Made by a program: the position numbers and the translations under genes
Shown here: positions 1,112 through 52,500 of the stretch, in pieces
How positions within the stretch are numbered: position 1 is the stretch's first letter
Layout: the number at the start of each line of letters is the position of its first letter
Notes under the pieces: model-generated
Told to the model about the DNA's origin: nothing
Seen by the model: only the letters and a program-made list of their open reading frames with translations
Database searches by the model: none
Assembly: GCA_025617745.1 (NCBI GenBank)
Contig: CM046869.1
Location: 5,790,244-5,854,243 of the forward strand
From: Heliocidaris erythrogramma
Lineage: Eukaryota > Echinodermata > Echinoidea > Camarodonta > Echinometridae
Length of the DNA: 64,000 nt
Reading direction: 5' to 3'

Positions 1112-4100
1112 GTAAGTTAGTGCATTCAGTTCTATTAAGACAATCCTTGCAATCAGCGGCATCGCTAGACGGGAGGGGGTGTCACCCCCCACCCACCCCA
1201 CCCAATATTGCTTTCGGCAAATGCGCCACCTCTGTAGGCAAAAAAAAGGAACAAAAAAAAAGAAAAGCGAAAGGAAAGGAAAACTAAAACAGACAGAAAA
1301 GAAGGAAAGAAAAAGAAGGAAAAACTGGCCAAACACTGGAAAGTTAATATTCTGGCAAAAGGCGTCACCCCCCCCCCCCCCCCCCTGTAGAGCCCACAAA
1401 TGTAAAAACTCATTGCTTGCATAATGTACCCATGTAAGATAAGTTATTATGAGATGTATGTGCGCGTGCGCGTGTGAAACTAGTGATTTACTAGTGGTTT
1501 CCCTTTTATAATCAGTTTACAGAGATGGGGGTCGAGGAGCTGATCATAAACTTCAATGGCAAGAAAAATTCAGATAATCCATCGATCTTTAAATAGAACA
1601 GCAACTAATATGATTCCAGTGAGGGCAATTAATGTTGTATCCCCCGAAAGTAGCCAGTCCATATCATTATTATTAACAGAATCAGACGTCTAGAGCGAAC
1701 TCGAAAATATTTTTAAATAAAATTTATTGCCCGCTATTTAACACGCAAAATCCCATTGACTTTCGAAAACGCGCGATAAACAATTTATCGGCCCGCAATT
1801 ATGTTAGCTTGGCAAAACCGGAATAATAAAATGTAAAAATTGCATTGCTCAGATGTCTGACATGGTTAATAATAATACTTTTTTTATTCACGCGATTTTA
1901 ATGATGAAATATTTAATGGTAGAGAAATGCCTGAAACCTGCACGTTGTCGTTTCAATCTATAGTGATAATCAAATATAACACACATGTAGTGGGCCTACA
2001 CTATACGACGCACGCTGTTTTGATTAAAAATAAAGGGTTTATTGCCACTTGGTCTACAGCCAGTTGGTCTACCAATTGATCTAACATCATTCGGTCTAAT
2101 ATTAGTTGGTCCAATAACGAAGTGGCCTAATCATTATTTCGTCCAATTACCATTTGGTCTAATTGTCATTTCGTATAATTACCATAATGAACATAAAGAG
2201 TACTATAAGGAAAGACGGAAGATAGCGAAAGAAATGTAGGGATAAAAAAACAATATAACAAAGGCAGGATGCATTAAAACAATAGTTGAAAATTCACCTT
2301 TTTCTCCTCTTCCCCCCCCCAAAAAAAAAACAAACAAACAAACAAACAAACAAAAACAAAACCATACAATTACTGCCAAAAAAGTTCGAAAATTTCGGCC
2401 AGTGCGCCGAACCGAGGCCTGACTGTTTAGTCAAAGCCACCTAGAGTAGTATTGTGGAGGGAAAACAAGAAATTAGCCCAGTTGGTCATTAGACGAAACG
2501 ATGATTAGACCAAATGGTAATTAGACCAAATGAAAATTATACCAAAATGATTATTAGACTAAATGAGTGTTGACTAAATGATTATAGAACAACTGAGGTT
2601 AGACTAACTGACAAAATGGACCAAATGATGTGTTGACCACATGGGTATTAGACCAACTGGGTTTAGACCATTTGTTGATTAGACGAAATGGCAGTTGGAC
2701 CAAATGGTTGTTAGATCAAATGGTTTTAGACCAAATGGCCATTAGACGAATTGACTATAGACCAAATGGTAATTAGACGAAGTGAAAATTAGACCAAATG
2801 GTAAATGCACGAAATGATGATTAGACCAATTGGTTATTAGACCAACTGATATTAGAAGCAATGATGTTAGAACAATTGGCTATTAGACCAAGTGGCAATA
2901 AACCTATATAACTCTGACAGGCTAATTTGTCTGTAGTATTAGACCAATGGATATTAGACTAAGTGAACATTATACCAAACTGTTATTAGACGAACTGAGA
3001 ATTGGACCAAACGATGGCAAAAAATGGTAATTAGACGAAGTGATGATAAGACGATGTGGGTGTTAGACCAACTGGGTTGAGACAAAATGGCTATTAGACA
3101 AAATGATGATTAGACCATTTGGTTATTAGACCAATTTTTTTAGCCGAAATAGATTGGACCAAGTGAACATTAGACGAACTGATTATTAGACCAAGTGATG
3201 TTTAGACTAAATGGGTTTAGACCAAATGGGTATTAAACCAAATAGGTTTTAGACGAATTGGCTATAGACGAAGTGATTAAACTGATTATTAGACCAAATG
3301 GCTATTACACGAAATGGAGATGGACGAATAGACTGAATGATATTGGACCATTTGGTTTTTAGACCAATTGGCATTAGATCAAGTGGCAATTTACCATAAT
3401 AACTTACACCCTAAAAAATTGTCGGCAATTTGGGTGTCACACCCCCCCCCCCCCCCCCGCCCCCTTTCAAAATGTTCTATCAGCGCCCCTGATTACAATA
3501 CTCCTGGGACTTTGGGATTTAAACGATTAAACGATTTTTTTAATGCCAAAAGAATAATTGTTTAGCAAATAATGTGTTGAGGATATCACACAAGTTAGCC
3601 TCTGAAGTTCCCTTCAGTCTAAAATTCTACTATTCCAAAATGGAAAATCTCGCTTCGCCGCTATGCTCCCTCGACAAAAAAGCTAGGAAATAAATATATA
3701 GAAAATAAACTTTAACATACTGGTAAAAAACATCCCCTATTAGATAGTAGATATGACATAGTCAGATTTTACTGTGGGTTTACGAGATACGGAAGGCAAC
3801 TTTGTAATAGGACCTATACCACGAAATGCAGGGTTGACAACTCGAAGAAGAAGGGGACGCCTCTACTTGCAAACAAAAAAAGTCGTCCCCACTCCCAAAA
3901 TCTAAAAAAAATCGCAAAGAAGTGATGATTCCATACCCCCATTAAGAGAACAGTTAGGGGGCGTGCCCCCCCCCCCCCCCGCCTCCTTGAAAGAAAAGTA
4001 TACGTTGTGACCCCCCTCTTTTAGAACTGATAACCTTTTTTTTTCTTTCCTTTTCTTTTCTTTTCTTTTCCTTAGAGAATTATGGAGAGAAACTGGACCC

Positions 4101-20929: not shown

Positions 20930-23570
20930 TCACATATGGTAATCAGTGTGCCAAGCAGGCTTGCCGGTACGGCGGGTGGACCTTCTGGGTGCCACAGCAG
21001 GGACGGCATCTGGCGTGGTGGCAAGTTCAGGAGCAGTGGATTGGGGAAGAGATGATGCAGGCGTCGCAGTTGCAGGAGTCTCGACGGATGAGGGCACATC
21101 CATTGGTGGGGGTGGTGTGGGTCGTCGAGTGTCGGCTGCCAAGGAAGGTGGCTTCGTCGACGGTGCTGGTTGCACGGGCGCCGTGTCGGGTGAGATGTAT
21201 GGCTGGTGGACACACTGACGCTGAGGTCGGTGATGCAGGCGCATGTCGTCAGCGATCGTCAACCGAGGTGTCGGTGGATGGACGGGGGTGTACTTCCTCA
21301 GGAATTTCCTATTGCGTAGGGTAACCCGGCCGGAGCCATCGACTCTTACAACATACTGGTCAAACTGGCGGACCTCGACTATGATGCCAGTGCTGTCCCA
21401 CTTTAGGGGGTGAGGCCCTGTCTGATTCTGTATGCGGACACTGTCGCCAACGGTAAGGGGCGGCAGGCGTTTAGCATGTTCCGACCAGCGTTCAGCACCT
21501 CTCATGTGGCGGTTACGGAGTGCCGCTTCACGTGCCACCAGAGTCTCTCGCCATGTGCCATGTGGCTTGTATTTGCCCAGTGCTATGGGAATGAAGTCTC
21601 GAATTGGTCGTCCAAACACACACATTGCAGGAGAGAGTTTGGTATCCCGATCTGGCGTGTTCCTATACTGAAGCATAGCCCGTTGAAATGCATCAGTGTC
21701 GAGGGCCCCTGTAGGGCTGGTGTTGTCCATGATAAGACGTTTAACTGTTTTGACACCAACTTCGGCACGACAGTTGCTGTGGGGAAAGGCGACAGAGGAA
21801 AGTCTGTGGTGTATGCCCCAATTCTTGAGAAAGTGTCGCGTCACTACGGCTGTAAATTCAGGACCGCCATCTGAAGCCAACTCATCAGGGATGCCAAAGG
21901 TGACAAAGATGCGTCGGAGACAACTGACGAGGCCATCAGCACCATTGGCAGACTTCTCTACGATAGGCCAATTGGAGTACCTGTCGACCACAACAAGGTA
22001 GTTGCAGCCTTTGTAGTGGAAGTAGTCCGTGCAAACACACTGAAAAGGATAGGCGGGAGATGTCAAGGGCATAGGTGGTGCACTTGGGTTGGAGGGTGCT
22101 ATCCGATTACAATGGTGGCATCTTGCACGCAGGGCTGTGATGGCAGGAGTGATACCAGGCCAAAAGATGGACGCTTCAGCTCTCGCAGTCATGGACGTGA
22201 CCCCTTGATGGGCCGCATGTAAATGAGCCAGCACCTCATCCCTGAGAGAGGGTGGAATGATGATGCGGTCCCTGTACAGCACCACTCCATCAACGGTGTG
22301 GAGGTCATTGCGGAACTGGAAGTATTCACGTAGTGGCCCTGGTAGTTCGTGGCGAAACTCAGGCAATCCAGACTCCACAAGTTCAACGAGACACTGCATG
22401 TTCTCATCACTCGCTGTGGCGGTGCGGACTCTGTCCCATGTGACTGATTTCAGGCAGAGTCCATCCAAAGAAGACGTGGCAGAGGATAGGACACATTGCT
22501 CAAAGGTGCCGACATGTGATGCTGTTGTGCGCAAGCCAGCCATGAGGGTTGGGGAGTGTGTCAGTGCGTTAGGCATGGAGTCAATGGTCGCAAGATCATC
22601 TGGGAGGACGAGCTTTTCTGGTTCACCAGTCGGGTGACGCGAAATGCAATCAGTAGCCCGATGTCTGATGCCTGGAACATGTACCATCCGGAACCTATAT
22701 CGCAGTGATTTCTCCTTCAAGTTCCTCAGGCGGGGGTTGGGGATGTCTTCTAGGGATCGGTCAGCGAAGATCTTCAAGAGGGGCTTGTGGTCAACAGCGA
22801 TTATGAGGTCCTTGCATCCCAGTACGAAGTATCTGGCCTTGTCTAATGCATCAACGACTGCAAGGGCCTCCCCCTCCACAGGGGCATAGCGTGATTCTGC
22901 AGGGTGTGTGAATCTGCTACCAACGAACGTGATCTTCCATCCTGTGTTACAACAGAACGGTTCGGTGTGGGTGCAAGCACAGTGTTTCTGAAGGAGCCAG
23001 AAGCCAATGCCATTCTTGGACCAATCTGTCGCCAGGCACGTGGGCTTGCTTGAGTCAAAGATTTGGACGCCCTCTTCGATCTCATCGGCTATAACTGCTT
23101 TGGATTCGTCAAATGCACTCTGGAGGGTCTCATCCCATGTGAAAGGTGTGCTGGGTTTCAGGAGCTGACGAAATGGGAGCATCTTGTCAGCCATGCTGAA
23201 GGCGTATGACACCTGGTTGACAAGCCCAAACCAGGAGCGTACATCTGTGATGGTCTTGGGTGTCGGGAAGTCCAGAATTGCCTGCAGGTATTTCTGGCAT
23301 GGGCGAACACTGTCAGAAGTTATCTCAAAGCCAGCAAATTCCACAACATCAGCACCGAATACGAATTTGTCAGGGTTGAGGGTGACCCCATGCCGGCCAC
23401 AAGTATCAAGCCAGTTGACGGCCTGGAAGAAGCTGTCTTCCAGTGTGTCCGCCCAAAGGAGGACGTCATCCACGCATTTTGTCTTGTTTGGGATGTCTGA
23501 CACGATCTCGTCATAACGCCTTGTGTACCCGTCACCTGAGGCAATGTATCCTTGTGGGGCCGTTTTGTAG
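20930..23570 (-). pseudogene. gypsy pol: end of RT, RNase H and integrase
   Basis: The frame contains the catalytic [11 protein letters not shown] box of RT, the RT connection, RNase H with [16 protein letters not shown] and AVDHKPLL, the integrase zinc-binding domain (HLHAAHQG...RCHHC), the catalytic core with CTDYF and ASDGGPEF plus a conserved downstream glutamate ([13 protein letters not shown]), and a C-terminal SH3-like domain. No chromodomain follows; the tail is proline/threonine-rich. Its upstream edge is the frame break near 23570, so this part is not translated from the gag start without a shift. Confidence 0.92.
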
Positions 23571-25375
23571 CGGTATATCTACCCCAAGGTGTAATGAATG
23601 TGGTCAAATGACGGTCCTCTTTGCAGATGGGCACACTGTGATAACCATTCCATGCATCAAAGACCGTCTTCTTCTGTCCATGGGGGACTGACCGAGCTTG
23701 GTGGAAGGGCGATGGCGTATGATGTGTTTCCCGTGTGGCGTGGGCATTCAGGGCTTGGAAGTCAACAGTTCGCCGTGGGTTGCCGGTTTTCTTTGCACAA
23801 ACGACCATCCTGTGGCACCAGGTAACGGGCTCACCAATCGGGACTGGTTCTATTACCCCTAGCTGTACATCATGATCTAATCCGGCTTTTACGGCATCCC
23901 GCCAGTGGAGAGGAACAGGTACTGGCGTGTGATGCACAACTGGTTCAGCGTCAGGGTCCACCATCAGCTTGATAGGAGGGCTGTCCATGAGGGGCATGGG
24001 CTGGTGCTCACATGTGTTGAATGTGCTTGATTTGTAATAGTCCAAGAGGTATTGCTGCAGCCTTGAACGATTCGCTTCAGTTGCAGAAAATGGCAAGTCC
24101 TTGGGAGGTGGTGGAGGATGCTGACGCTGTGGACAGTCACAAGCCTTCTCAGAGGTCTCCTGCAGGGCAGCTGCTGTGTCCGGTTGGCGTGTTGCACCCA
24201 ACATAGGGAAGCTGTCTGGGATGATCCCAAGGTCAATACAGGCCTCCTTGCTAAGGAAGAATTTTTCAGATCTGTCGGTAACGTAGGTCATCTGCCTGGT
24301 CTCAACAACTCGACCCTGTGCATCTTTGCCTGAGATGCGAAGTAATTTGGCCCCAAGAATTCTAATTCCTCCTTTGGTGGCAGTGTGCATTCTCATGGTG
24401 ACCGGGATGAGGTCCGTTTGATGCAAACCGAGGTGGCGAATGACCTTTATTCCCACAAGGCAGCTTTGGCACCCAGTGTCTGCCATGGCAGGGACAGAGC
24501 GAGTTACTGTGGTGTAAGGTAGGCTGTAACCGAGTGCCTTGTAGTCATCAGGCACGAGTTGAGAAGCTGACCTTTTCTTCAGCCATGTTTTGGACAGGTT
24601 GTCGTATACATGATGGTCAATTGGGATGGGTAGGCCACCATGAAGTCGTTCCACATCGTGGATGGTGCATAAGGCATCAAAAATGGCACCTTCATCGTCG
24701 TCTTTAGCACTGGGTCTGGAGTGTTTGGGCTTGTCTTTTCCGCGGCATACGGCTTCCATGTGGTGATATTTATCGCAGTGTCCACACTTTTGGCCATATG
24801 CTGGGCACTGGGCTTTGCGGATTCTGGCTGGGGCAGTTTTACCATGGCCCTTCTTGCCGCAGTACGTGCACAGGTCCTGTTTCTCTTTCAGGTTTGTCTG
24901 CTTGGCTTTCCTGTACATGCTGCTCTTGGCATCCACAGACTGTGAATCGAGGAGTGAGGATGCTGAACGTTTGCCAGCCTCTTTGGCTTCAATGAACTGG
25001 AAGACCTCCTCAAGGGTCATGTTCTGGTTCTTGTAACCAAGGAGATCGAGTTGGATTTCAGGGTCAGCGATACCTCGAGTGAGCACATCTCGCATCATGG
25101 CGTCGGTGTAGTTGACATCAGCGTTGCAGCCAGGACATTTCATGAGGAATTTGCATATGTCTGCCTGACCACGTAGGCGAGCCCCAAAGCTGCGTACCGT
25201 TTCGTCCCGATCCTGACGCATATTGTGTAGTGTGACCCTGGCAACCATTGTATTCTCCTCACGCACTGCAAGTTTTTTGATGGCTGCTAGTACCTCATCT
25301 TCAGATTTGTTTGTGAGGCTACCACCAGCCGACCGTGTGAGGTCCTTTCGTAAGGGCTCATGCCCGATACCTTTG
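23570..25375 (-). pseudogene. gypsy gag C-terminus, protease and start of reverse transcriptase
   Basis: The frame contains gag helices, two cysteine-histidine knuckles (CTYCGKKGHGK and CGHCDKYHHMEAVC), a retropepsin active site (MADTGCQSCLVG; the canonical DTG is visible), and the start of RT with VPLHWRDAVKAGL, RRTVDFQALN and DAWNGYHSVP. RT homology in this frame stops near 23570 after the FITPWGRY stretch, where reading passes to the next frame. The open frame continues to 23320 without homology. Confidence 0.88.
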
Positions 25376-25628
25376 TGGCTTCGACGTAGTCTGACCATCT
25401 CGACTTGAAGTAGGCCCATTCCTCACTGGACCCAGCAGCAGTAATTGTAGGACGTTTGACCTTTTCAACCTTGGCAACTTGTCCAGAGGTGTGTATTGCG
25501 CTGTGGGTGGTGATGAGTGCAGCTACAATAGCAGCATCATGATCAGGAGTGGCGTAGTGACAACCAGGGATGGGGCAGGATACGACAGGCATTGTCAGTC
25601 TTTCAATGTGGCTCAGGCGTTGATCCAA
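25372..25628 (-). pseudogene. gypsy gag, N-terminal part
   Basis: The minus-strand frame starts close to the 5' LTR and contains a C-x4-C-type segment (VSCPIPGCHYAT) and the gag-like EEWAYFKSRWSDYVEAT stretch. Near 25370 the gag reading moves to another frame, where the KDLTRSAGGSL stretch continues. I see this as a frameshift lesion, though a sequencing error is possible. The open frame continues to 25287 without homology. Confidence 0.75.
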
Positions 25629-34500: not shown

Positions 34501-37500
34501 ATATTCAAAAGCTATTTTCAGCACAAGATACATGTATCTGTTTAATAGTGCCTGAAGTAGACTGTGTATATAAAAGATGGTCATGATTGTTTTTCCAGGT
34601 TTGATGAGACTCATTTTGGTCTATTCACAAGCTTCTATCTCCAAGGTGTCTTCTTCTTTGATGTGCATCCACCCCTAGGCAAGCTACTACTAGCTACAGT
34701 TGGTTACTTGGCTGGCTTCCAAGGGGATTTCTCCTTTGAAAAGATAGGTCAAGGTGGGCAGCATGACGGACATGAGCGCTATACAAGAAGCCACCATTAT
34801 TTATTATTATTATATAATGTGTAGTGTTTATCTCACTATCGCCACTGTAATCAGGGTCTACAGGCAATAAAAGATCAACTCTGATTTGCATCCCTCATTT
34901 TGATCATGAAGTGGGGGGGGGGGGGGGGGGTCAGTCAGTGATTTCTTCATTGATTAGATTTTTATTTTATTTTCCTTCCATGGTTGATGAAAGAAGATAT
35001 CTCCTCATTGATACATTAAAGACCATACATGTATATATCTTGTTGCAGAGGAATTTCCATTTTCAGAATTTGCTTCCTGGAAATACTTTGGGAGGGGATT
35101 TATAAAAGAAATAGAGCTAGAACATTACAAGAGTTATATTCCTCCAAACAAACTCTGTAGCATGCCCCCATTGTAATACACTGCCCCAACATAATTTAAT
35201 TTGTTCTCCATTCATAGAATACCCTTGTGACATGCCGATATGGTACTTGCGCTTCCTACCAGCTCTATGTGGATCTCTCCTTACCCCTCTTAGCTTCTAC
35301 ATCTTGGAAGGTATGGGTTTCAGTCAATGGACAGCTGCTATTGGAGCCTTCCTGGTTGTGTGTGGTAAGTCTTTGTCATTTTTAAGACACATGAACAATT
35401 TTCTATAGGAAATATCATAGTCCACTGATTTCTCCTATACTTAGCAAATACATTAATCCTCAATTGGGGTGTGTTATTGATATGTTGTGATTGAAGAACT
35501 TCAGAACAAGTGCCTCTCGGAGGGAAATTCCTCCCCCCCCCCCCCCAAAGAAAAAAAAAAAAAAAAAAAGAGAAATAAGTAAATACAATTTTAAAAAATA
35601 AATAAATATTTTAAAAATGCAAAAACAATGAAAATTGATTATGATAAAATAGAGAAAAGGGACATTGGGTGATGATCTGTATGTCACTTGACCTTAACAG
35701 TATTGTTAACAGAAATGTTTGACACAAATATTTCTACTGAGCTAAGACAGTGAGCATACCTGGGAAAATCCACCTCTAGAGACAGGTATAAACACTTTTG
35801 TGTGTTTATACAGAAGCACCTACCGGGAAATAACTTGTTACACAAAGTAACAGTATTTAGAAATCCTGTAGAACTGGTGATAGTTTCTACTGCGCTGTAA
35901 GAAGCATGACTGTGTTAGTTTATTAGGTAATCCTTGTAGGGTCCTATATGTTGTGAGTCATTTTAATCACCCAGATTTTGATATCATCTCTAATATTTGT
36001 TGACAAAGGAAAGCTTTTCTTCTCTAAATTCAAACTAGGTCTTGAGTTGTGAAGTTAGATATTGAATAATAATTGCAGCCAGATGAACATAGGGACTATG
36101 ATTGAGAGCTTGTGTCACAAGATATCATTGGTGATGCACAGTAATACTGTGCTGATAAATTGTATCAACACTCTGAAGTAAAATGAGTGACCATCATCCT
36201 TTAATCACAGATAACTCTTTATTGACTCAGTCTCGTTTCATCTTGTTGGATACCATACTGCTTTGTTTCATCCTGCTGGCTTTTCTTGCTCTACTCAGGT
36301 TCAGACAACTCAAGGATAGGTAAGCAGTCATTGTTTATGGTAATAACATTTGTGATGAAACATGGATTTTTAAAATACTGTGCATTTGTTTTGTAAAATG
36401 GGTGAATTAGATTATGAAGGCGAACAGAAACAAAAATGGAAAGGCTGATGAAACATGAACTTTTAAAATAAGCTGTATTTGTTTTGTAAAATGGGTGAAT
36501 TAGAATATGAAGGTGAATAGAAAAAAAATGGAAAGGGTTATGGATGTGATGGATTATGCTTTGATTCAGTGAATGGAAGAATTGACTTAAGTGTGGATTA
36601 TTCCTGGGGTAAAACTAGTAACTACTGATATTTTCAATTTTTCATTTTCGGATTTTCATCCATATTCACGTTGTTTTTTCCTGTATTCACTAATCAGCAT
36701 ATTAAAGATGACCAAGATTGAATTCTCTTAATGATAAAGAAAAATAAGATTAGAGTACAGGGATAAAGTACCCTAACCCTAACCCTAACCCTATTGTAAA
36801 GAATACAGAAAGAAAGACATCAAAGTTTGAAGAAATGGCTTCTTTCATAATTTGTTTCTTATATGATTATTCTTATAGGCCTTTTAGTATCCAGTGGTGG
36901 GCATGGCTAACATGCTTAGGAATCTTCCTTACGTGCTCTATCAGGTACTTCACTTATAAGTATCATGTTTGTGAGTGCATTAGTGGATCTGCACTGCACT
37001 CGGGTTACACCTCAGTCACACCGCAAAACCGATTCCACACTGACTCCAAACTGACTGATTCCACACTGACTCCGAACTGACCGATTCCACACTGACTCCA
37101 AACCGACCGATTCCACACCGACTCCAAACCGACTGATTCCACACTGACTCCGAACTGACCGATTCCACACTGTCTCTGAACAGACCAATTCCACACTGAC
37201 TCTGAATGGATAGATTCCACACTGACTGCAAACCCGACTGATTCCACACTGACTCCAAGCAGACCGATTCTGCACTGACTCTGAACGGACCGATTCCACA
37301 CCTACTCCGAACAGACCGATTCTTAGCCATTCGATGTAACCAATTCCACATTGACTCCAAACCGACCGATTCCACATTGACTCCTAACCGACCGATTCCA
37401 CACTGACTCCAAACCGACCGATTCCACATTGGCTCCAAACCGACCGATTCCACACTGACTCTGAACGGACCGATTCCACACTGACTCCAAACCGACCGAT

Positions 37501-40500
37501 TCCACACTGACTCCTAACCGACCGATTCCACACTGACTCCAAACGGATCGATTCCACACTGACTCTGAACGGACCGATTCCACACTGACTCCAAACCGAC
37601 CAATTCCACACTGACTCCAAACCGAGCGATTCCACACCGACTCAAAACTGACCGATTCCACACTGACTCCGAACTGACCGATTCCACACTGACTCCAAAC
37701 CGACCAATTCCACACTGACTCCAAACCGAGCGATTCCACACTGACTCCGAACCTACCAATTCTTAGGCATTCAGTGTAATCTAAATTTTTGTTTGGTCTG
37801 TTGTTGGTCTGATGTCTCGTTGATGTGACTGGGGTATAAAGTCACAATCACATACATGTAATGAATGAGATTTTTTTAGTTTATTGTCTGTCTCATTGTG
37901 ACTAAACAAAGTGCATTGCATTTCACTAATGCATGAGCTATTATATAATTTTTAAAAATATCAGATTCAACATGAAAATTTTTGGATATTGACCACTTAT
38001 AACACTGCAGTGAGTATACATGTGCTAGATTATATCCATTTATGACTGTAGACAATACCTAAAAAGGTCATGTTAATCACTTCTGGTGAAATTGCATTTC
38101 AGGAGAAACTAAGGGCTTATATAAGTGGTTGACTATGGGATTTAGGGAACAGCAAATATGGGTGGCACAAAGAAAATCATGTTTACTGGCTACTTATGAT
38201 AGTGAGAAGCTGCAAAATGTTTGTTACTGAGCAAATTTCTTTCAAAGTCATGGGGCAGGTACATGTATTACTTGAGCCCAATAATTATAATTCTGTGTTT
38301 TTGTGTGGGATTTCTATAACCATGTATTTTCAGTGAAGTAGTACTTTGTTGAGTCCTGTTATCAGATGTTATCACTGGTTATATTACATGTACATGTATT
38401 TAATGAATTCACTTTTATTTTTCCTTAATGTTTATTTTTCAGTGTGAAATATTCTGGTTTGTTTACATCGTTTGTCATCCTGGGAGTTATCATGGCTGAT
38501 TATTGGATACTAGTTGGTAACCAAAGCATCTCTAATGTAAGCATTAATCCATTGAATACTGACCGAAGCGTCTCTAATGTAAGCATTAATCCGTTGAATA
38601 CTGCCCGAAGCGTCTCTAATGTAAGCATTAATCCACTGAATACTGACTGAAGCATCTCTAATGTAAGCATTAATCCATTGAATACTGACCGAAGCATCTC
38701 TAATGTAAGCATTAATCCATTGAATACTGACCGAAGCATCTCTGATGTGAGCATTAATCCATTGAATACTGACCGAAGCGTCTCTAATGTGAGCATTAAT
38801 CCATTGAATACTGACCGAAGCGTCTCTAATGCAAGCATTAATCCACTGAATACTGACCGAAGCATCTCTAATGTAAGCATTAATCTATTGAATACTGACC
38901 GAAGCGTCTCTAATGTAAGCATTAATCCACTGAATACTGACCGAAGCATCTCTAATGTAAGCATTTTTCCACTGAATACTGACCGAAGCATCTCTAATGT
39001 AAGCATTAATCCATTGAATACTGACTGAAGCATCTCTAATGTAAGCATTAATCCATTGAATACTGACCGAAGCGTCTCTAATGTAAGCATTAATCCACTG
39101 AATACTGACCGAAGCATCTCTAATGTAAGCATTTTTCCACTGAATACTGACCGAAGCATCTCTAATGTAAGCATTAATCCATTGAATACTGACTGAAGCA
39201 TCTCTAATGTAAGCATTAATCCATTGAATACTGACCAAAGCGTCTCTAATGTAAGCATTAATCCACTGAATACTGACTGAAGCATCTCTAATGTAAGCAT
39301 TAATCCATTGAATACTGACCGAAGCGTCTCTAATGTGAGCATTAATCCATTGAATACTGACTGAAGCGTCTCTAATGTAAGCATTAATCCACTGAATACT
39401 GACTGAAGCATCTCTGATGTAAGCATTTATCCATTGAATATTGACCGAAGCATCTCTAATGTAAGCATTAATCCATTGAATATTGACCGAAGCATCTCTA
39501 ATGTAAGCATTAATCCATTGAATACTGACCGAAGCGTCTGTAATGTAAGCATTAATCCACTGAATACTGACCGAAGCATCTCTAATGTAAGCATTTTTCC
39601 ACTGAATACTGACCGAAGCATCTCTAATGTAAGCATTAATCCATTGAATACTGACCGAAGCGTCTCTAATGTAAGCATTAATCCATTGAATATTGACCGA
39701 AGCATCTCTAATGTAAGCATTTTTCCACTGAATACTGACCGAAGCGTCTCTAATGTAAGCATTAATCCATTGAATACTGACCGAAGCATCTCTAATGTAA
39801 GCATTAATCCATTGAATACTGACTGAAGCATCTCTAATGTAAGCATTAATCCATTGAATACTGACCAAAGCGTCTCTAATGTAAGCATTAATCCACTGAA
39901 TACTGACTGAAGCATCTCTAATGTAAGCATTAATCCATTGAATACTGACCGAAGCGTCTCTAATGTGAGCATTAATCCATTGAATACTGACCGAAGCGTC
40001 TCTAATGTAAGCATTAATCCACTGAATACTGACTGAAGCATCTCTGATGTAAGCATTTATCCATTGAATATTGACCGAAGCATCTCTAATGTAAGCATTA
40101 ATCCATTGAATATTGACCGAAGCATCTCTAATGTAAGCATTAATCCATTGAATACTGACCGAAGCGTCTCTAATGTAAGCATTAATCCAATGAATACTGA
40201 CCGAAGCATCTCTAATGTAAGCATTTTTCCACTGAATACTGACCGAAGCATCTCTAATGTAAGCATTAATCCATTGAATACTGACCGAAGCGTCTCTAAT
40301 GTAAGCATTAATCCATTGAATATTGACCGAAGCATCTCTAATATAAGCATTTTTCCACTGAATACTGACCGAAGCGTCTCTAATGTAAGCATTAATCCAT
40401 TGAATACTGACCGAAGCATCTCTGATTTAAACATTAATCCATTGAATACTGACCGAAGCGTCTCTAATGTAAACATTAATCCATTGAATACTGACCGAAG

Positions 40501-43500
40501 CATCTCTGATTTAAACATTAATTCACTGAATACTAAGCCTAGTAAGGTAATTCTGGATCAAACCCATTGTGAAAATGAAAATGAAACCATCTTCAACATG
40601 TGAATGAAGTGGCTATATTAAGCACAAACATACCTGTTACATTAGACTAGAACCTTCTCTTAGTACAAGGCCTATTTAGTTGCAACAGGAAAATGTTTGT
40701 CATGAATAGGAGATCCACTGCCTGAAGTTTTTCTAGGTTAGCATTTTTTGCAGATATTGCAAGGAACTTTAATGACATATTGCAAGAGAAAACACTTAGA
40801 ATAAAAAAGAGACCTGTGTCCATATAGAAAAGTATCTAAACTCACATTTGTTTGAATGTTTTTTGTTTTCGTTCAGACTCTCCTATTCAAAGAGACGTTA
40901 GCAAGAGCATTACTCCTTATTGTTGTGCCTGTGGTGCTATACCTATCCTTCTTCTATGTTCACCTGTCTGTTCTATATCGGAGTGGTCCTCATGATGGAA
41001 GGATGACCAGTGCATTCCAAGCATCCTTAGAAGGAGGACTAGCAAAGGTCACACAGGGTCAACCACTTGACGTGGCCTACGGTTCCCAGGTTAGAATAGA
41101 ACTTAGTCTAAGTCCAACATTCTGTATCTAGTGTGATGAAATATGTCTGGAAATTAAGTGGCAATCATGCAAATATTATTAGCTGATGCAGTTATAATCA
41201 CTGTCTTCATTTCATCTTGTTTTAAAAGGCACAATTAAAAAAAAATATTTTAATACAAATACTCATAGTTTGGAGATATTGCACACCTCAAAAGATTCTA
41301 GGAAATTCAATATAAGTGCAACTTCTATCAGTTATCTTCAACAATTTGTAATTGAATGAAGTAGAACCAATTATATATCTGGTAGTCACATTATTAAAAA
41401 ATTTAAAAAGTTTTGTATACCTGTCGCATATTAGCCTCTTAGTAGGGAAATATAGGAGAGATTATTACACCACCAAGCTACATCCACTTATTGCAAGATC
41501 GAGGGTTGAATCAGCCTGGTGGGTACCAGTATGCATTGTGTATTTGGACAAGGCATTATATGTATTATCCATGGTTGTCTCTCGACCCAGGTGTAAATTG
41601 GGTGCCTGTGGAGATTTATTCTTATAAATTTGTAACCTGGTATTCTGAAAATTATGTTTTTTGTTAGGTTAGCTAGGGAGAGGCATCATTACAACTCTAA
41701 ATCATGACAAGTCATTGGTTGATGTCTGTACATAGTTGGCATGTTAATAGTTCTGCATATTGGTTGATGTCTGTACATAGTTGGCATGTTAATAGAGTAC
41801 CGAAGTGATGACATCACAAAAAGCTATTTTTTCATTTTGACATTTTTTATACCATATCTCAAAGGAACATGGTGAAAAACATCCAGATCCCAAATTTTAT
41901 GGCAATTGGCTCATTAGGCCCTGAGATATGGCCGCATGAATACCTCCTTAGCCCCATTGAAGTCAGTGTTAAATTGACCTGGTTCTAAACTGTTAAGAAC
42001 CAGGCCAATTTACACTGACTTCAATGGGGCTAATGAGATATTCATATAGCCATACCTTGGGCCACCATGAACTGATTCATGTCAAATTTGATGTGTGACC
42101 TAAATATGGTCATAAAAATACTGAAATACAAAAATCAAAATTTGATGACGTCACACTTCGGTACTCTATAGTTCTGCACAAGCAATTAATGTTCAATCCT
42201 TCTTCTGTACAGTTTAAGTTTAAGAAGACAAATAATGTACATAATTTCTCATACTATTTGGAAGCATGACATGTAGAATCACATGTGATATCAGCTGTAC
42301 AAAGGCAGCATATTATCATTTTTAAATAGTCCCCTTTATAAATCAATAGATCACTCTGCGACATACACACAATTCTGTTTGCTGGCTCCACTCTCACCCA
42401 CACCACTACCCATTGAGATACTCAGAAACTAGGGGGAGCAGCCTACAACAGCAGGTCACATGCTATACCTTCAAGGTAGGAAGATGAGTTTTTAACAAGG
42501 GAACACTCTGCTGAAGATATCAAGATGACAATTACCACACTGCGTATCAAAGAAAAGTATACCCAACTTTGGTAGCTTGTAATCAAACAGTTATTACCTG
42601 TATGAGCTTGAAATTTATTTCATAGGCAAGAGCAACTTATATTCTCTGTAATGTTACCTTATTCATAACTTTGCTGCCACAAAAGTACAGTCAACCTCGC
42701 TTAAGTCGAATAGTCGCTCAAGTCAATGAAAATAAAAAGTCCCAATTTATCCTCATAGACTTACGCGTGTTAATCCTTTGTACAAGTAGATTTTTGTAGG
42801 CCGATAACTCGCCTATATCGATCGAATTCACAGAACAATACCATTAAAATGCATTAAATTTACACCACGCAAGTCGAACAAGACGGCGATGTGAAATCAA
42901 TCATTGTTGAAACTGCCACACGCCGATTTTGTTTACAAATTTCCCCGCGATCTCTGCGTCCTCTCTCGCAATCTCACGTGAAGAACGAAATGTTATGTAA
43001 AACTTTCAAAATGATTTTAGACTAAAGTTACACATTCATAATGGCTTGACCCACATTCGTGGCATCAGCCCAAACTTGGAACATGGAGATTTTGACAACA
43101 CTTTTTAAAAACCTGCTCAGTCGTCCATGGCAGAAATGTGATAAATGAGGTACCACTGGACAGACACTTACTCTTCACCATGAAATAAATTTCAAACTCA
43201 CATATCTTATAACATTCTAATTAGAAGCTATCAAAGTTGGGTATACTTTTTTCTTTTGATACGCACTGTATATATGTGACCCTCCACCACAAAACGACCA
43301 ATGAGTCGGAAATTTGGGTTTTTAAAATTTCAACACAGTTTGAAAGCTTAGATTCTAAGCTTTAAAATAATATATAACTTGCCTTGTATGGACTAAGCAA
43401 ACCTTTGTAAATTACAATGAGAAAGTCAATGTGTCAGACAGGCTAATGACCAAAACAATAGAGAAAACAGGCTCTAAAGAAGAGTGACCATTGAAGAGCG

Positions 43501-46500: not shown

Positions 46501-49500
46501 GAGTGCAGTGGGTCCTTAAGATGTTTATAGGTGGTGACTCTCTTACACAAGGGACCTCCATTTAACATCCTATCAAAAGGATAAAATGTCTTCCATTGTA
46601 ACTAGCATGCATTTATGAAACAAGGGGAGGGGTATGTTGGCACAAAACAAAGGCTTCAGTCATCTTCCTGGATAGGATTCAAACCTACAAGCTTTGGTTC
46701 GGCAGGCAGATGTTTTACTGACTCAGCCAAGGTGCCTCATAACCTTTGCTGAATTAGGACGTCCAAAATGATCTCTTTTTAAGCCTCCATCCACCGAAGG
46801 TGGTGCAGGAGGCATTATGTTTTAGGGTTGTCCGTCCGTCTGTCCGTCCGTCCATCCCGCTTTCTTGTTCTAGCGATAACTAAAGAACCACATGAGGTAT
46901 GAACTTCAAACTTAGTGCTGGTATGTATGACCATAGGACGACGATCTGATTAGGTTTTGGGTACGTAGGTCAAAGGTCCAGGTCACGAGGCCAATTTATG
47001 AAATTGCAGGTGTCGGCCTCGTTCTAGCGATAACTCAAGAACCATATGAGGTATGAACTTTAATCGTGGTGCTAGTATGTATCACCTTAGGAAGAGGATC
47101 TGATTAGATTTTGGGATACATAGGTCAAAGGTCATAGAGGTCAATTCTGAAATTGCAGGTTATAGCCGTAACATGATATCTCAAGAACCATTTGCTCCAT
47201 TAACTTCAAACTTGTATGCATCACCGTAGTGAGACCAACTGATTATACCCCCGCCAAACGAAGTTTGAAAGGGGGTATATAGGAATCAGTCAACGGTTGG
47301 GCGGTCGGTCGGTCGGTCGGTCTGTTGCAAATCTTGCGGATCGAACTACTTTCTCAGTTTTCGACCAAAGCTCATGAAATTTGGTACACACATTGGTCTT
47401 GGTGGGAAGATGTGCAAGACATATTTTTCGGATGAGTCGGAATCTGCGTTGCCATGGTAACGGCATATTTATGGCAGAAAATCAAGGAAACACCTTGCGG
47501 ATTGAACTACTTCCTCAGTTTTTGACCGAAAGTCATGAAATTTGGTACACACATTGGTCTTGGTGGGAAGATGTACAACATATTTTTTTGATGTGTCGGA
47601 AGCTGCGTTGCCATGGAAACGGCATATCTATGGCAGTAAATCAGGGAAAAATCTTGCGGATCGAACTACTTCCTCAGTTTTCGACCAAAAGTCAAGAAAT
47701 TTGGTACACACATTGGTCTTGGTGGGAAGATGTGCAAGACATATTTTTTGGATGTGTCGGAAGCTGCGTTGCCATGGTAACGGCATATTTATGGCAGTAA
47801 ATCAGGGAAAAATCTTGCGGATCGAACTACTTCCTCAGTTTTTGACCGAAAGTCATGAAATTTGGTACACACATTGGTCTTGGTGGGAAGATGTACAACA
47901 TATTTTTTTGATGTGTCGGAAGCTGCGTTGCCATGGAAACGGCATATCTATGGCAGTAAATCAGGGATAAAATGCGGATCAAACTACTTCCTCAGTTGTC
48001 AACCAAAAGTCAAGAAAGGCTGGGTATTAATCATCATCTTCAGTGATATTTCTTGTTAGATTTTGTTCATGTAGGTCAAAGGTGACAGGTCATAGTAGTC
48101 ATTATACAGGTGTATGTGAAATTAATTACTATACATGTATATCAACTATTTTGTATTCATGACTAGAGGAGATAAAGTGATCAGACTTTGGGGTTATAAG
48201 GTCAAATGTCAAAGAGGCCAATTAACATGTAATTAGCGGCTTTTTATTCTGGTTCAATCAAAATTTAAAACAAATAACGTGAATGTGCAATATATTTCTG
48301 ACCTGGCAACGGCGAAGGCATAAAATTTGACTGCGCGCAGTCGAGAATCATCTAGTTTCTTGTAGATGTAATATTTGAAGCTAATATTTTTGATACAGTA
48401 TGCCAACATGTAACCCCAAACAAACAAAGCAATTCATGGTGTGTGACTGGTTCCTTTCAACAACAAGTCTATCTACAATTTCAGTGTCATCAAAATTAAT
48501 AATCTTACAGGCAACTTGTCAGCCTATATTTCCACGTTTTCCAGTGTGAGGTCACTATGGATCACATAATTTGTATAGTTATATTATCATTATTATTATG
48601 TTTATTATTTCTATAGGTGACTGGTCAGCAACTTCCTGATTGGGGTTTCTACCAGTATGAGGTTGCTACAGATCGTGTCATGGTTCAGGATTCCAACATC
48701 TGGAATGTGGAGGAAAATAAATATTCTGTTGGTAATTAAAATGACCTCCTCAGTAGTACATGTACTCAAAGATAACATTTAACAAATTCATAGTGACAAA
48801 GCTTTTCGACCTGCACTCATCGGGTCACAACGCAGGAATGAGAGAATACAAGAAAATACAAAAGTCAAGGAAGGGTGTGTATAGCGACCCGGGTATGATC
48901 CGGGCACGCTAGAATAATCGAAGCGCTTGTACAAACTCCTTTTGTCGGCACAATAGCGGATCTCTCGACTGAATGAACAACGCTTCTAAGAAGCGAAGAT
49001 GTTGAAAGCTGCGTGCTCGGGCAACAATAGTGAACTGAGCCGGGTTATACGCCTTGGAACAAGCCGGACTATTTAGCAAGTGCTGACCAATAGCAGAGTC
49101 GCTGTGACTGCGGCATTGAACATTAGCGACGCTAGCAGCGGTTTTGCAGTTACGCTTCGGCTGTGCTCGGCCACCAGCTGATGCCCGTCGTACCACGATG
49201 GGTACGTGCTGTCCAATGCGGTCCGCTAGACGCTGAGATGTACGGCCAACATAGACGGCTTCACACCGACAATGATACTGATAAACGACATTGCTCATTT
49301 GGGGGGAAGGCAGTAAATCCTTGCGAACTGCGGGTAGCATTCCACCAGTAGAGAACACGACACGCGTAGCCACGGCAAAGTAACAGCGCGACACTGTATG
49401 CTTAACATCGCGCGCACACCCATCAGACACTTCACCTCGCCAAGGCAATCCGAGGCAGACCAGGCATTTATTGGGCCCACACACAGGGCGAGTCCGCGAA

Positions 49501-52500
49501 TCAATGGTACGCTGCACAACGCGATCAATGACAAGCTCCGGATAGCCACCGTCTCGCAGGACTTGCTTGATGCGAAGAAGCTCAGGGTTGAGCTTACACG
49601 GAGAACAAATTTGCAAGGCGCGACACACCAAGCTATCAATCAAACCAGTCCCATACGATGTAGCACTGTACGAATCCCATCGCGTGTACTGGCCCGTAAA
49701 CGTAGGTTTACAATATACGGACGTGAGAAGTTTGCCGTCACTCTTCTCAACCAGTACATCCAAAAATGGAAGCGCGTTAGACTGCTCCATCTCACATGAA
49801 ACCGAAGCGCCGGATGAAGCGAGTTGAGTTGTGTAAGAAAGTCCTTGCACGCAGCGCTTGAATCAAACATAGCAAAGGTATCATCAACGTAACGAAAGTA
49901 GGTGAGCGGGGTAAGGCTAGGATCAGTGATGTTTTCATGAAGGCGGGCTTCATGAAAGCCAACAAAGATATTAGCAAGCACGGGGCCCAACGGGAAACCC
50001 ATAGCAACACCATCGATCTGCGAATACATGATATCATTAAAGCTAAACTCGACAGCACTTGTAGCATGTTTCATTAGTTCAACAAACACGGATTCAGAGA
50101 TAGGAGGTTCATCCAAATCACCATGGTAGAGGGCGGAGACACAGATATCAATGGTCTCCTTTAGTGGCACGTTGGTGAACAAACTACAGACATCAAATGA
50201 ACATAAAGAGACAGATTCACTAATGTACTCAGTGTAAATACATTGTTTCTTCCTTAGCAGGGATGGTTATCATGTAATATCTTTACCAATAGATTTGTAG
50301 AGGTGATATTTGTAATGAATTAGGGTTAAGCCAGAGATGATTGCAGAATATATATTTAATACACACATTTTCCATATACTTCAGTTTGATTTATATCAGG
50401 CTCTTATTCTACAGATTAACCCTAACTGCACTGAGGGGGGGGGGGTGATTTTGGTGATTGCATCGCGACCGCTGGCAATTTCGGATTCTCGCTTCATGAC
50501 TTTTTTCCCTGAAGTCTTGCGCACGTTTTGATACCACATTTGTCCATATCAGATATACCTAGTGGGTGTTATATGATAATTAGTATGTGCATGTCATTAA
50601 AATTGCTAATCGCTCCATATATTTGTGTACAATTACATGCTGTCAATACACAATGGCTTGCATTTTAATTAGCCAATTATTCAAAAAATGTGCATAATTG
50701 ATTAAAATTAATCACACCATCAGATTCAGCATGTGAAGATCTATCGACATGCAAATTTTCAAGTTCATTGGACATTGCGTTTCCGAGATCAATCGGGGGG
50801 GGGGGGGGGGGGTGGGCTCCCAGGTCCCCCCCCCCCCCCCAAGTATTTTCATGGAGCAAAATAGCCTAGTTCAGTAAGGGTTAAATGAAAATGAAACCTT
50901 TCCAGTAAATTAATGATAAAATCCACTGTTAATCTTGATGTTTGCAGACAAAGAAGAAGAGTTCTGGGATGAGACAAAGGAGCTGAGTTTCTTCAGTAAA
51001 TTCTGGGAATTACAGGTAAGATTCTTCTTTCATTCTCAACCCTTTGTGTCATTCTGTGTCACAAGGTTTTCCAGTTCATATTTAGATTCCATGTGCATGT
51101 ACATGTACATGTTTCTGTTTTGAGATTCTTAGGAAGGCTTTGCCTCCCAAGGCATTATAGGTGTTCAGAACTTTTTTAAATTTTGACTTAACATTTAATG
51201 TGCTGATACTCTTTTTTGAACTATGATTTTAGATTTCGTCCCTTCACATGAGACTATGACACACCACTAAATGTGGCGTTCTTTGCGCTCAGGCATGAAG
51301 TGATGGATTAGATAAATGCTTGACATGCATGCAACACACAAGCACATACATTAAAGGGCAATCCAACCTGACTAATAAGATGACTTGTGTGAAAGCAGAA
51401 AACTGGGTGGTGAAAGTTTGAAAGAAATCAGACAAGGAATAAGAAAGTTATGGATGTTTGAAAAATGAGATCACTAAATCTATGCGAATCTCAAATTGGC
51501 AATTTGGTGATTCGACTGTGACATACTTGCGGACAACTCTCCTGTTTGTTTTGCACTAAAATATCATTTGATTTGCAGTTTTCTCCGAAGTGAATTTACC
51601 CTTGGGGCAGTACACTAAATACAGTATAATGGAGGTAGAATATTGTTATAGTTCCTCATGAAAGAAAAACATCCTACTTAGTAATGGACTTTGAAAAAAA
51701 CTTAATTTTCAGTCATTTGTGTGTAGGAGCAAATGGGGGAGTTGTCCGCAAATACATCACAGTGACATTACGTATTCGGCCAATTTGAATTTCCATATGT
51801 ATAGTGACTACAATTCTTAACTTCCTTATTGCTTGTTTGATTTTGTTCAAATTTTCACCAGTCTGCTTCTCTGATTTTTCCTCTTTCTTTCAGAGCAACT
51901 TGCTATTAAAGGAGAATTAACACTAGAATATAAAATTAATGTACTTATGTTCAAAGGTGTAATATATTCTTAATCATTGACCTGTATCACTTGTTAAATA
52001 AAATATCAGAAAAAGGTTTAAATCAAGACATTCTAGCTCACGGTATCATCTGCTAACACTTTACATGGGGGCTGCCATTTTCTTGATGACATGGAGTTGT
52101 ACATGAACCATTGGAAACCGTTCCGGTCAGGAAGATATTTTTAATCCTCGAGCTAAATTGCTTCTCTTCATTATAAAAAATCCCCATATATGATGGAAAA
52201 TACATAACAGGTGTATATATATATATATATATATATATTCTAAAATTGGAAATTTATAGATTTCTTTTTAAATTCTCTGGTTTTTTCTAACTGGAAATCA
52301 TTTTCTTGGTCTTGCCTGGCAGAGCAGAACATAATTTATACAACGCGCATTCTGACGTTTGAAGTCCATTATCTAAAAGCAGGTGAATGCATATAGTTTG
52401 TCACTATTGACGCTCGGGGGAAAGTCATCTGGCATAAATTTGAATTAATTCGCTCCGTCGCGTACGTCATAGTATCAAGAATATAGATTTGTATTTAGTA

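Follow-up and report, generated by a model that had tools for sequence, protein, structure and literature searches.

The closest described systems are tandem repeats that carry splice sites or exon edges. In genes of human segmental duplications, internal tandem repeats occur at exon-intron boundaries, with 27 intron modifications after manual inspection (PMC2812944). In UBC, dual-specific AGGT sites recur every 228 nt inside coding repeats and are used stochastically as tandem splice sites, with evidence from reverse transcription PCR (RT-PCR) (PMC10809524), and in trout irak3, 15-17 nt of an exon edge are repeated four times in the adjoining intron (PMC6763605). Here we describe a 42-bp minisatellite that starts in the end of exon 6 of POMT1 in the sea urchin Heliocidaris erythrogramma and continues into the following intron. 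The window, i.e., the whole stretch of DNA analysed, is 64,000 nt long (assembly GCA_025617745.1, CM046869.1:5,790,244-5,854,243, forward strand).

Like the human boundary repeats, the urchin array overlaps an exon edge, a position from which splicing can be changed; in the human genes the intron structure was changed and transcripts were seen, whereas the urchin array is known from DNA, the junction is kept and the copies are intronic. As in UBC, each in-frame repeat unit brings its own splice site, so that the site chosen sets how many whole units the protein gains, but the AGGT sites of UBC are dual and, by RT-PCR, used, whereas the urchin array repeats only putative donors. Dual-specific sites of the UBC type were ruled out, with 0 occurrences of AGGT in 38520-40534. 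In trout irak3, too, a piece of exon edge is repeated within the neighbouring intron, although there it is the start of exon 5, on the acceptor side, in four copies, and in the urchin it is an exon end with its donor, in 47 copies. The urchin array is a large, donor-only case of exon-intron boundary tandem repeats, a class that is already known; titles and abstract openings of the openly licensed PubMed Central (PMC) literature yielded no comparable donor-bearing intronic array, which is a weak negative. We consider it probable that the exon 6/intron 6 boundary of POMT1 seeded the array as a minisatellite, which has since grown neutrally, with the first donor being used and the array being removed with the intron.

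The gene model, built from open reading frames (ORFs) and GT/AG borders, comprises 17 coding exons on the forward strand (28276-58117; all exons, donors and units given below are on this strand) and encodes 767 amino acids. The product carries PMT, MIR and PMT_4TMC domains and its best relatives are named POMT1, from Strongylocentrotus purpuratus (82% identical), Lytechinus pictus (79%) and Diadema antillarum (68%), which identifies the gene. Exon 6 (38443-38536, 94 bp) encodes transmembrane domain 6 (TMD6) and the turn behind it and ends in GNQSISN. It is preceded by an acceptor AG ending at 38442 and followed by donor 1, AAT/GTAAGC (38537-38542; the slash marks the exon end), and its acceptor partner, exon 7 (40877-41089), was placed by the gene model and by alignment to relatives. 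Joining exons 6 and 7 at donor 1 yields the conserved protein, gap-free at the junction in 23/23 aligned relatives (3 of them urchins), which were picked from the best 120 of 2022 hits and include many gene predictions.

Tandem Repeats Finder (TRF) returned a single array at 38520-40534 with a period of 42, 48.0 copies, 92% matches, 0% indels and a score of 3407, the highest among 46 TRF rows for the window. These are head-to-tail units within the range of about 10-100 bp that defines a minisatellite, and the array begins 17 bases inside exon 6, which makes it an exon-boundary repeat. Cut at the donor phase, it comprises 47 full 42-bp units (38537-40510), each opening with a donor or a donor copy, and a partial, diverged 48th unit that begins with TT (40511-40534). 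GT stands at the start of 44 of the 47 full units, the exceptions being unit 8 (GC), unit 44 (AT) and unit 46 (TT). An in-frame TGA is present in 9/47 units, the earliest within unit 3 (38648-38650), and in all nine CGA has become TGA at the unit's first CpG site. The original prediction, which had been made from the letters of the stretch, had described this anatomy correctly: 47 full units and a partial 48th without an indel, 44 of the 47 with GT, and exon 6 of POMT1 with its donor GTAAGC at 38537, a 14-codon frame and the TGA at 38648-38650.

Identity at a lag of 42 bases was 0.927 within the array as opposed to no more than 0.31 in equally long stretches sampled at 500-base intervals across the window minus 36-42 kb. 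The units differ from their consensus at 84 of 1974 sites (4.3%), fall into 22 distinct units and diverge from each other by 6.8% on average. No further copies, i.e., none with at least 27/42 consensus matches, were found on either strand of the window outside 38400-40560. Minus-strand ORFs of up to 513 amino acids cover the array and are read as a by-product of the stop-free unit. A second minisatellite lies in intron 5 of POMT1 (37028-37762), with a 26-bp unit, 28.3 copies, 0% indels and no exon overlap.

The end of exon 6 that is common to the repeat unit (38520-38536) matches the unit consensus at 16/17 bases, with the last 13 bases identical, and extending the comparison gives 17/19. At the protein level, the exon end reads GNQSISN here and GDRGVSN, GNRNVSH and GDRSVSN in three other urchins. 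The units resemble these urchins: 31 of the 47 read exactly DRSISN (17) or DRSVSN (14). D is found in 46/47 units and 2/3 urchins where the live exon has N, R in 36/47 units and 3/3 urchins where it has Q, and V in 19/47 units and 3/3 urchins where it has I. Changes of CG to CA account for two of these three exon changes, and both CpG sites also vary within the array, where together they carry 30/84 of the differences (site A: CG in 36 units, TG in 9, CA in 2; site B: CG in 19, CA in 28; the exon has CA at both). It looks as though the exon end gave rise to the unit at a time when the live exon had not yet changed, and as though the units keep an older version of the exon. As the units carry the urchin-like DRSV/ISN and the live exon NQSISN, the reading that follows is that the exon/intron boundary seeded a minisatellite.

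Under this reading, an early tandem duplication would have combined the last ~17-19 bases of the exon with the first ~23-25 of the intron into one 42-bp unit, which slippage or unequal exchange may then have multiplied into the intron. In the most recent large step that can be seen, a block of 15 units (630 bp) would have been doubled: units 16-30 (39167-39796) and units 31-45 (39797-40426) differ at 5 of 630 positions (0.8%), and this internal doubling suggests that copy number may vary between individuals. Since each new copy opens with a donor, an array that expands into the intron always keeps the first donor at its position. Exon definition (the AG ending at 38442, the donor at 38537 and the 94-nt exon between them) would then select the first donor, and the entire array would leave with the intron. 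On this view, the duplicated donors owe their intact state to the youth of the copies rather than to selection.

Assemblies err at places like the doubled 630-bp block, with its mere five differing sites, and the copy number, in this doubling or in total length, might therefore be an artefact. The block copies do differ, however, 22 distinct units exist, and divergence is higher in units 44-47 than in units 1-43 (2.75 versus 1.70 differences per unit); moreover, a copy-number error would shorten the array, not remove it. Of all the explanations weighed here we give this one the least credence.

Several points weigh against neutral growth from the boundary with use of the first donor. We expressed donor strength as the calculated energy of the duplex with U1. 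At -4.3 kcal/mol, donor 1 pairs with U1 more weakly than any other of the gene model's 16 donors, and 43 of the 44 GT donors of the array, donor 1 included, lie at -4.3 or -4.4, with the remaining one (unit 47, GTAAAC) at -1.6. About 24% of all 3572 plus-strand GTs in the window (the array's own included) reach -4 or better, which makes the array donors plain sites. The rival donors are equal to donor 1, therefore pairing alone cannot favour it; donor 1 is probably the one mainly used, perhaps with some leak to donors 2 and 3, as far as use can be read from the DNA. The argument for an older exon draws on three urchin proteins only, and a 9-mer, ACTGACCGA, which includes the bases for D and R, recurs in the 26-bp array 1 kb upstream; such sharing with that array was seen for 2.3% of 5000 random 42-mers from the window. 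When every one of the 47 units is included, donor columns are somewhat less variable than the others (0.0331 versus 0.0451 differences per site), and 14/42 nine-column windows show as few or fewer total differences than the donor window, which places it in the lower third. Finally, a period divisible by three and two open units at the start are what a useful isoform would call for.

The last of these points, together with the 44/47 intact donors, could also be expected of a regulated donor reservoir or decoy, in which selection keeps the array as a means of adjusting the isoforms or levels of POMT1. The copies, being related, are not independent of each other, and the conservation figures are accordingly descriptive, without exact tests. 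The lower variability of the donor columns vanishes when the 22 distinct units are each counted once (0.0505 versus 0.0496 differences per site). Variable columns make up 5/9 of the donor and 11/33 of the rest, and no nine-column window of the unit exceeds the donor window in this respect; the donor bases are thus not clearly conserved above the rest of the unit, despite the difference seen with all 47 units. GT is retained in 44/47 units where 43.1 would be expected from the mean divergence spread evenly, 26 of the unit's 42 dinucleotides are better kept than GT, and stops interrupt nine units. Two candidate signs of selection were rejected as evidence. If the nine stops were placed at random, the chance of two stop-free first units would be ~0.65 by our own arithmetic. 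The lack of indels is no sign of coding constraint, as the 26-bp array, whose period is not a multiple of three, likewise has 0% indels.

These comparisons give no clear indication that the array donors are under selection. An insertion beside known dimer-interface residues (see below) would suit a regulatory role, yet we regard a selected reservoir or decoy as very improbable. The original prediction had offered a reservoir or decoy and a neutral expansion side by side; the neutral alternative gains from the GT retention, the donor columns and the nine stops, while the other found no positive evidence.

Neutral growth would still allow some leakage, in which donors 2 and 3 are sometimes used and give minor, unselected isoforms. 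Donors are largely alike, reading exactly AAT/GTAAGC at 37/48 sites from donor 1 to donor 48. Use of donor 1 predicts an exon of 94 nt, donor 2 of 136 nt and donor 3 of 178 nt, all within the 66-213 nt range of the gene's own internal exons; donors 2 and 3 would add 14 and 28 residues, respectively, in frame. Donor 4 predicts 220 nt with the TGA inside, and transcripts spliced from donor 4 or a later one would contain this premature stop. The UBC sites described above are a precedent for such use. Against leakage, the unit peptide was found in no POMT1-sized protein in a word-based search (19 candidates, none at an expectation value (E) <=10) of a collection that may not include the source species. 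Altogether, we judge leakage to be unlikely, though it deserves more weight than a reservoir.

The human protein offers a further precedent for leakage. The original prediction had named a 22-residue insertion in human POMT1 at the same junction, and this was borne out. We placed a 22-residue segment of this kind in a vertebrate POMT1 (P0093) and used this as the query of a protein search, in which 3/47 candidates reached E<=1: a Papio protein (P0121, 90%, from a cluster of 190 members), human isoform l (P0122, 97% over 79%) and, more weakly, a Smutsia protein (P0123, 64%). In the alignment, P0121 and P0122 have VGADVQCC... at exactly the urchin exon 6/7 junction, and the segment is missing from the other two vertebrates aligned, P0093 and P0109. 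The extra residues thus stand at the same column and start with Val, as would be expected from read-through of the GT of the first donor, judging from the protein. The inserted sequence is, however, unrelated to the urchin unit and its peptide is without a repeat, and we do not claim homology of the alternative. Primates accept extra residues at this junction, therefore leakage in the urchin would be tolerable in principle, which does not imply that it occurs. In human isoform l, moreover, unrelated residues follow the insertion ahead of the return to the common sequence, which makes it another splice variant at this junction.

Any added residues would fall into the turn between TMD6 and TMD7. 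The exon 6 tryptophan (VIMADYW) aligns to residue 263, counted along the alignment, of chain 9i5k_A, which is ctPmt4. In the report on this structure, W263 and L266 are assigned to the cytosolic end of TMD6, where they contribute to the major dimer interface (PMC12705809). The exon 6/7 junction was placed behind residue 281 of S. purpuratus POMT1 (P0001), whose AlphaFold model has helices at 255-274 and 281-313 joined by a short turn, at a predicted local distance difference test (pLDDT) score of ~87-91; the mean pLDDT of the same model is 64, with good values for the helices that flank the junction and poor ones for the MIR region. The loop at the junction is cytosolic, in contrast to the luminal side proposed originally.

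This location invites a further reading, namely a length-variable donor array in which donors 2 and 3 add 14-residue steps to the cytosolic turn beside the dimer-interface residues of the fungal protein and later donors lead to decay. The minisatellite would then have grown into a tunable switch of isoform and dosage, parallel to the 22-residue isoform of primates. It takes in the selected reservoir and that part of leakage in which the added residues matter, and we hold it to be improbable.

The locus amounts to a natural experiment, in which a single intron of a conserved gene contains 44 donors with GT and the calculated U1 pairing is the same for 43 of these, and RNA reads from it would reveal how position decides donor choice at constant U1 pairing. 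It also indicates that a repeat can grow from a splice junction without destroying it, and the array seems to keep a fossil of an older exon sequence.

Elsewhere in POMT1, intron 11 contains a tandem repeat at 47329-48017 (161 bp x 4.3, with a better score as 320 bp x 2.2), and intron 12 contains minus-strand, reverse-transcriptase-like ORFs at 48909-50266. ORF 49640-50266 scores 27.8 bits against RVT_1, under the cut-off of 29.6, and ORF 48909-49862 has no Pfam match; a GIY-YIG-like stretch in this region suggests a Penelope-like element. Upstream of POMT1, two long minus-strand ORFs overlap in different frames, of which 20930-23578 carries RNase H and integrase domains and 23320-25422 has no Pfam match; by inference, the pair at 20930-25422 is a retroelement of the long terminal repeat (LTR) type. 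A degenerate 16/32-bp repeat, ATTAGACCAAATGGTT, occupies 2472-3269 with 24.7 copies of the 32-bp unit.

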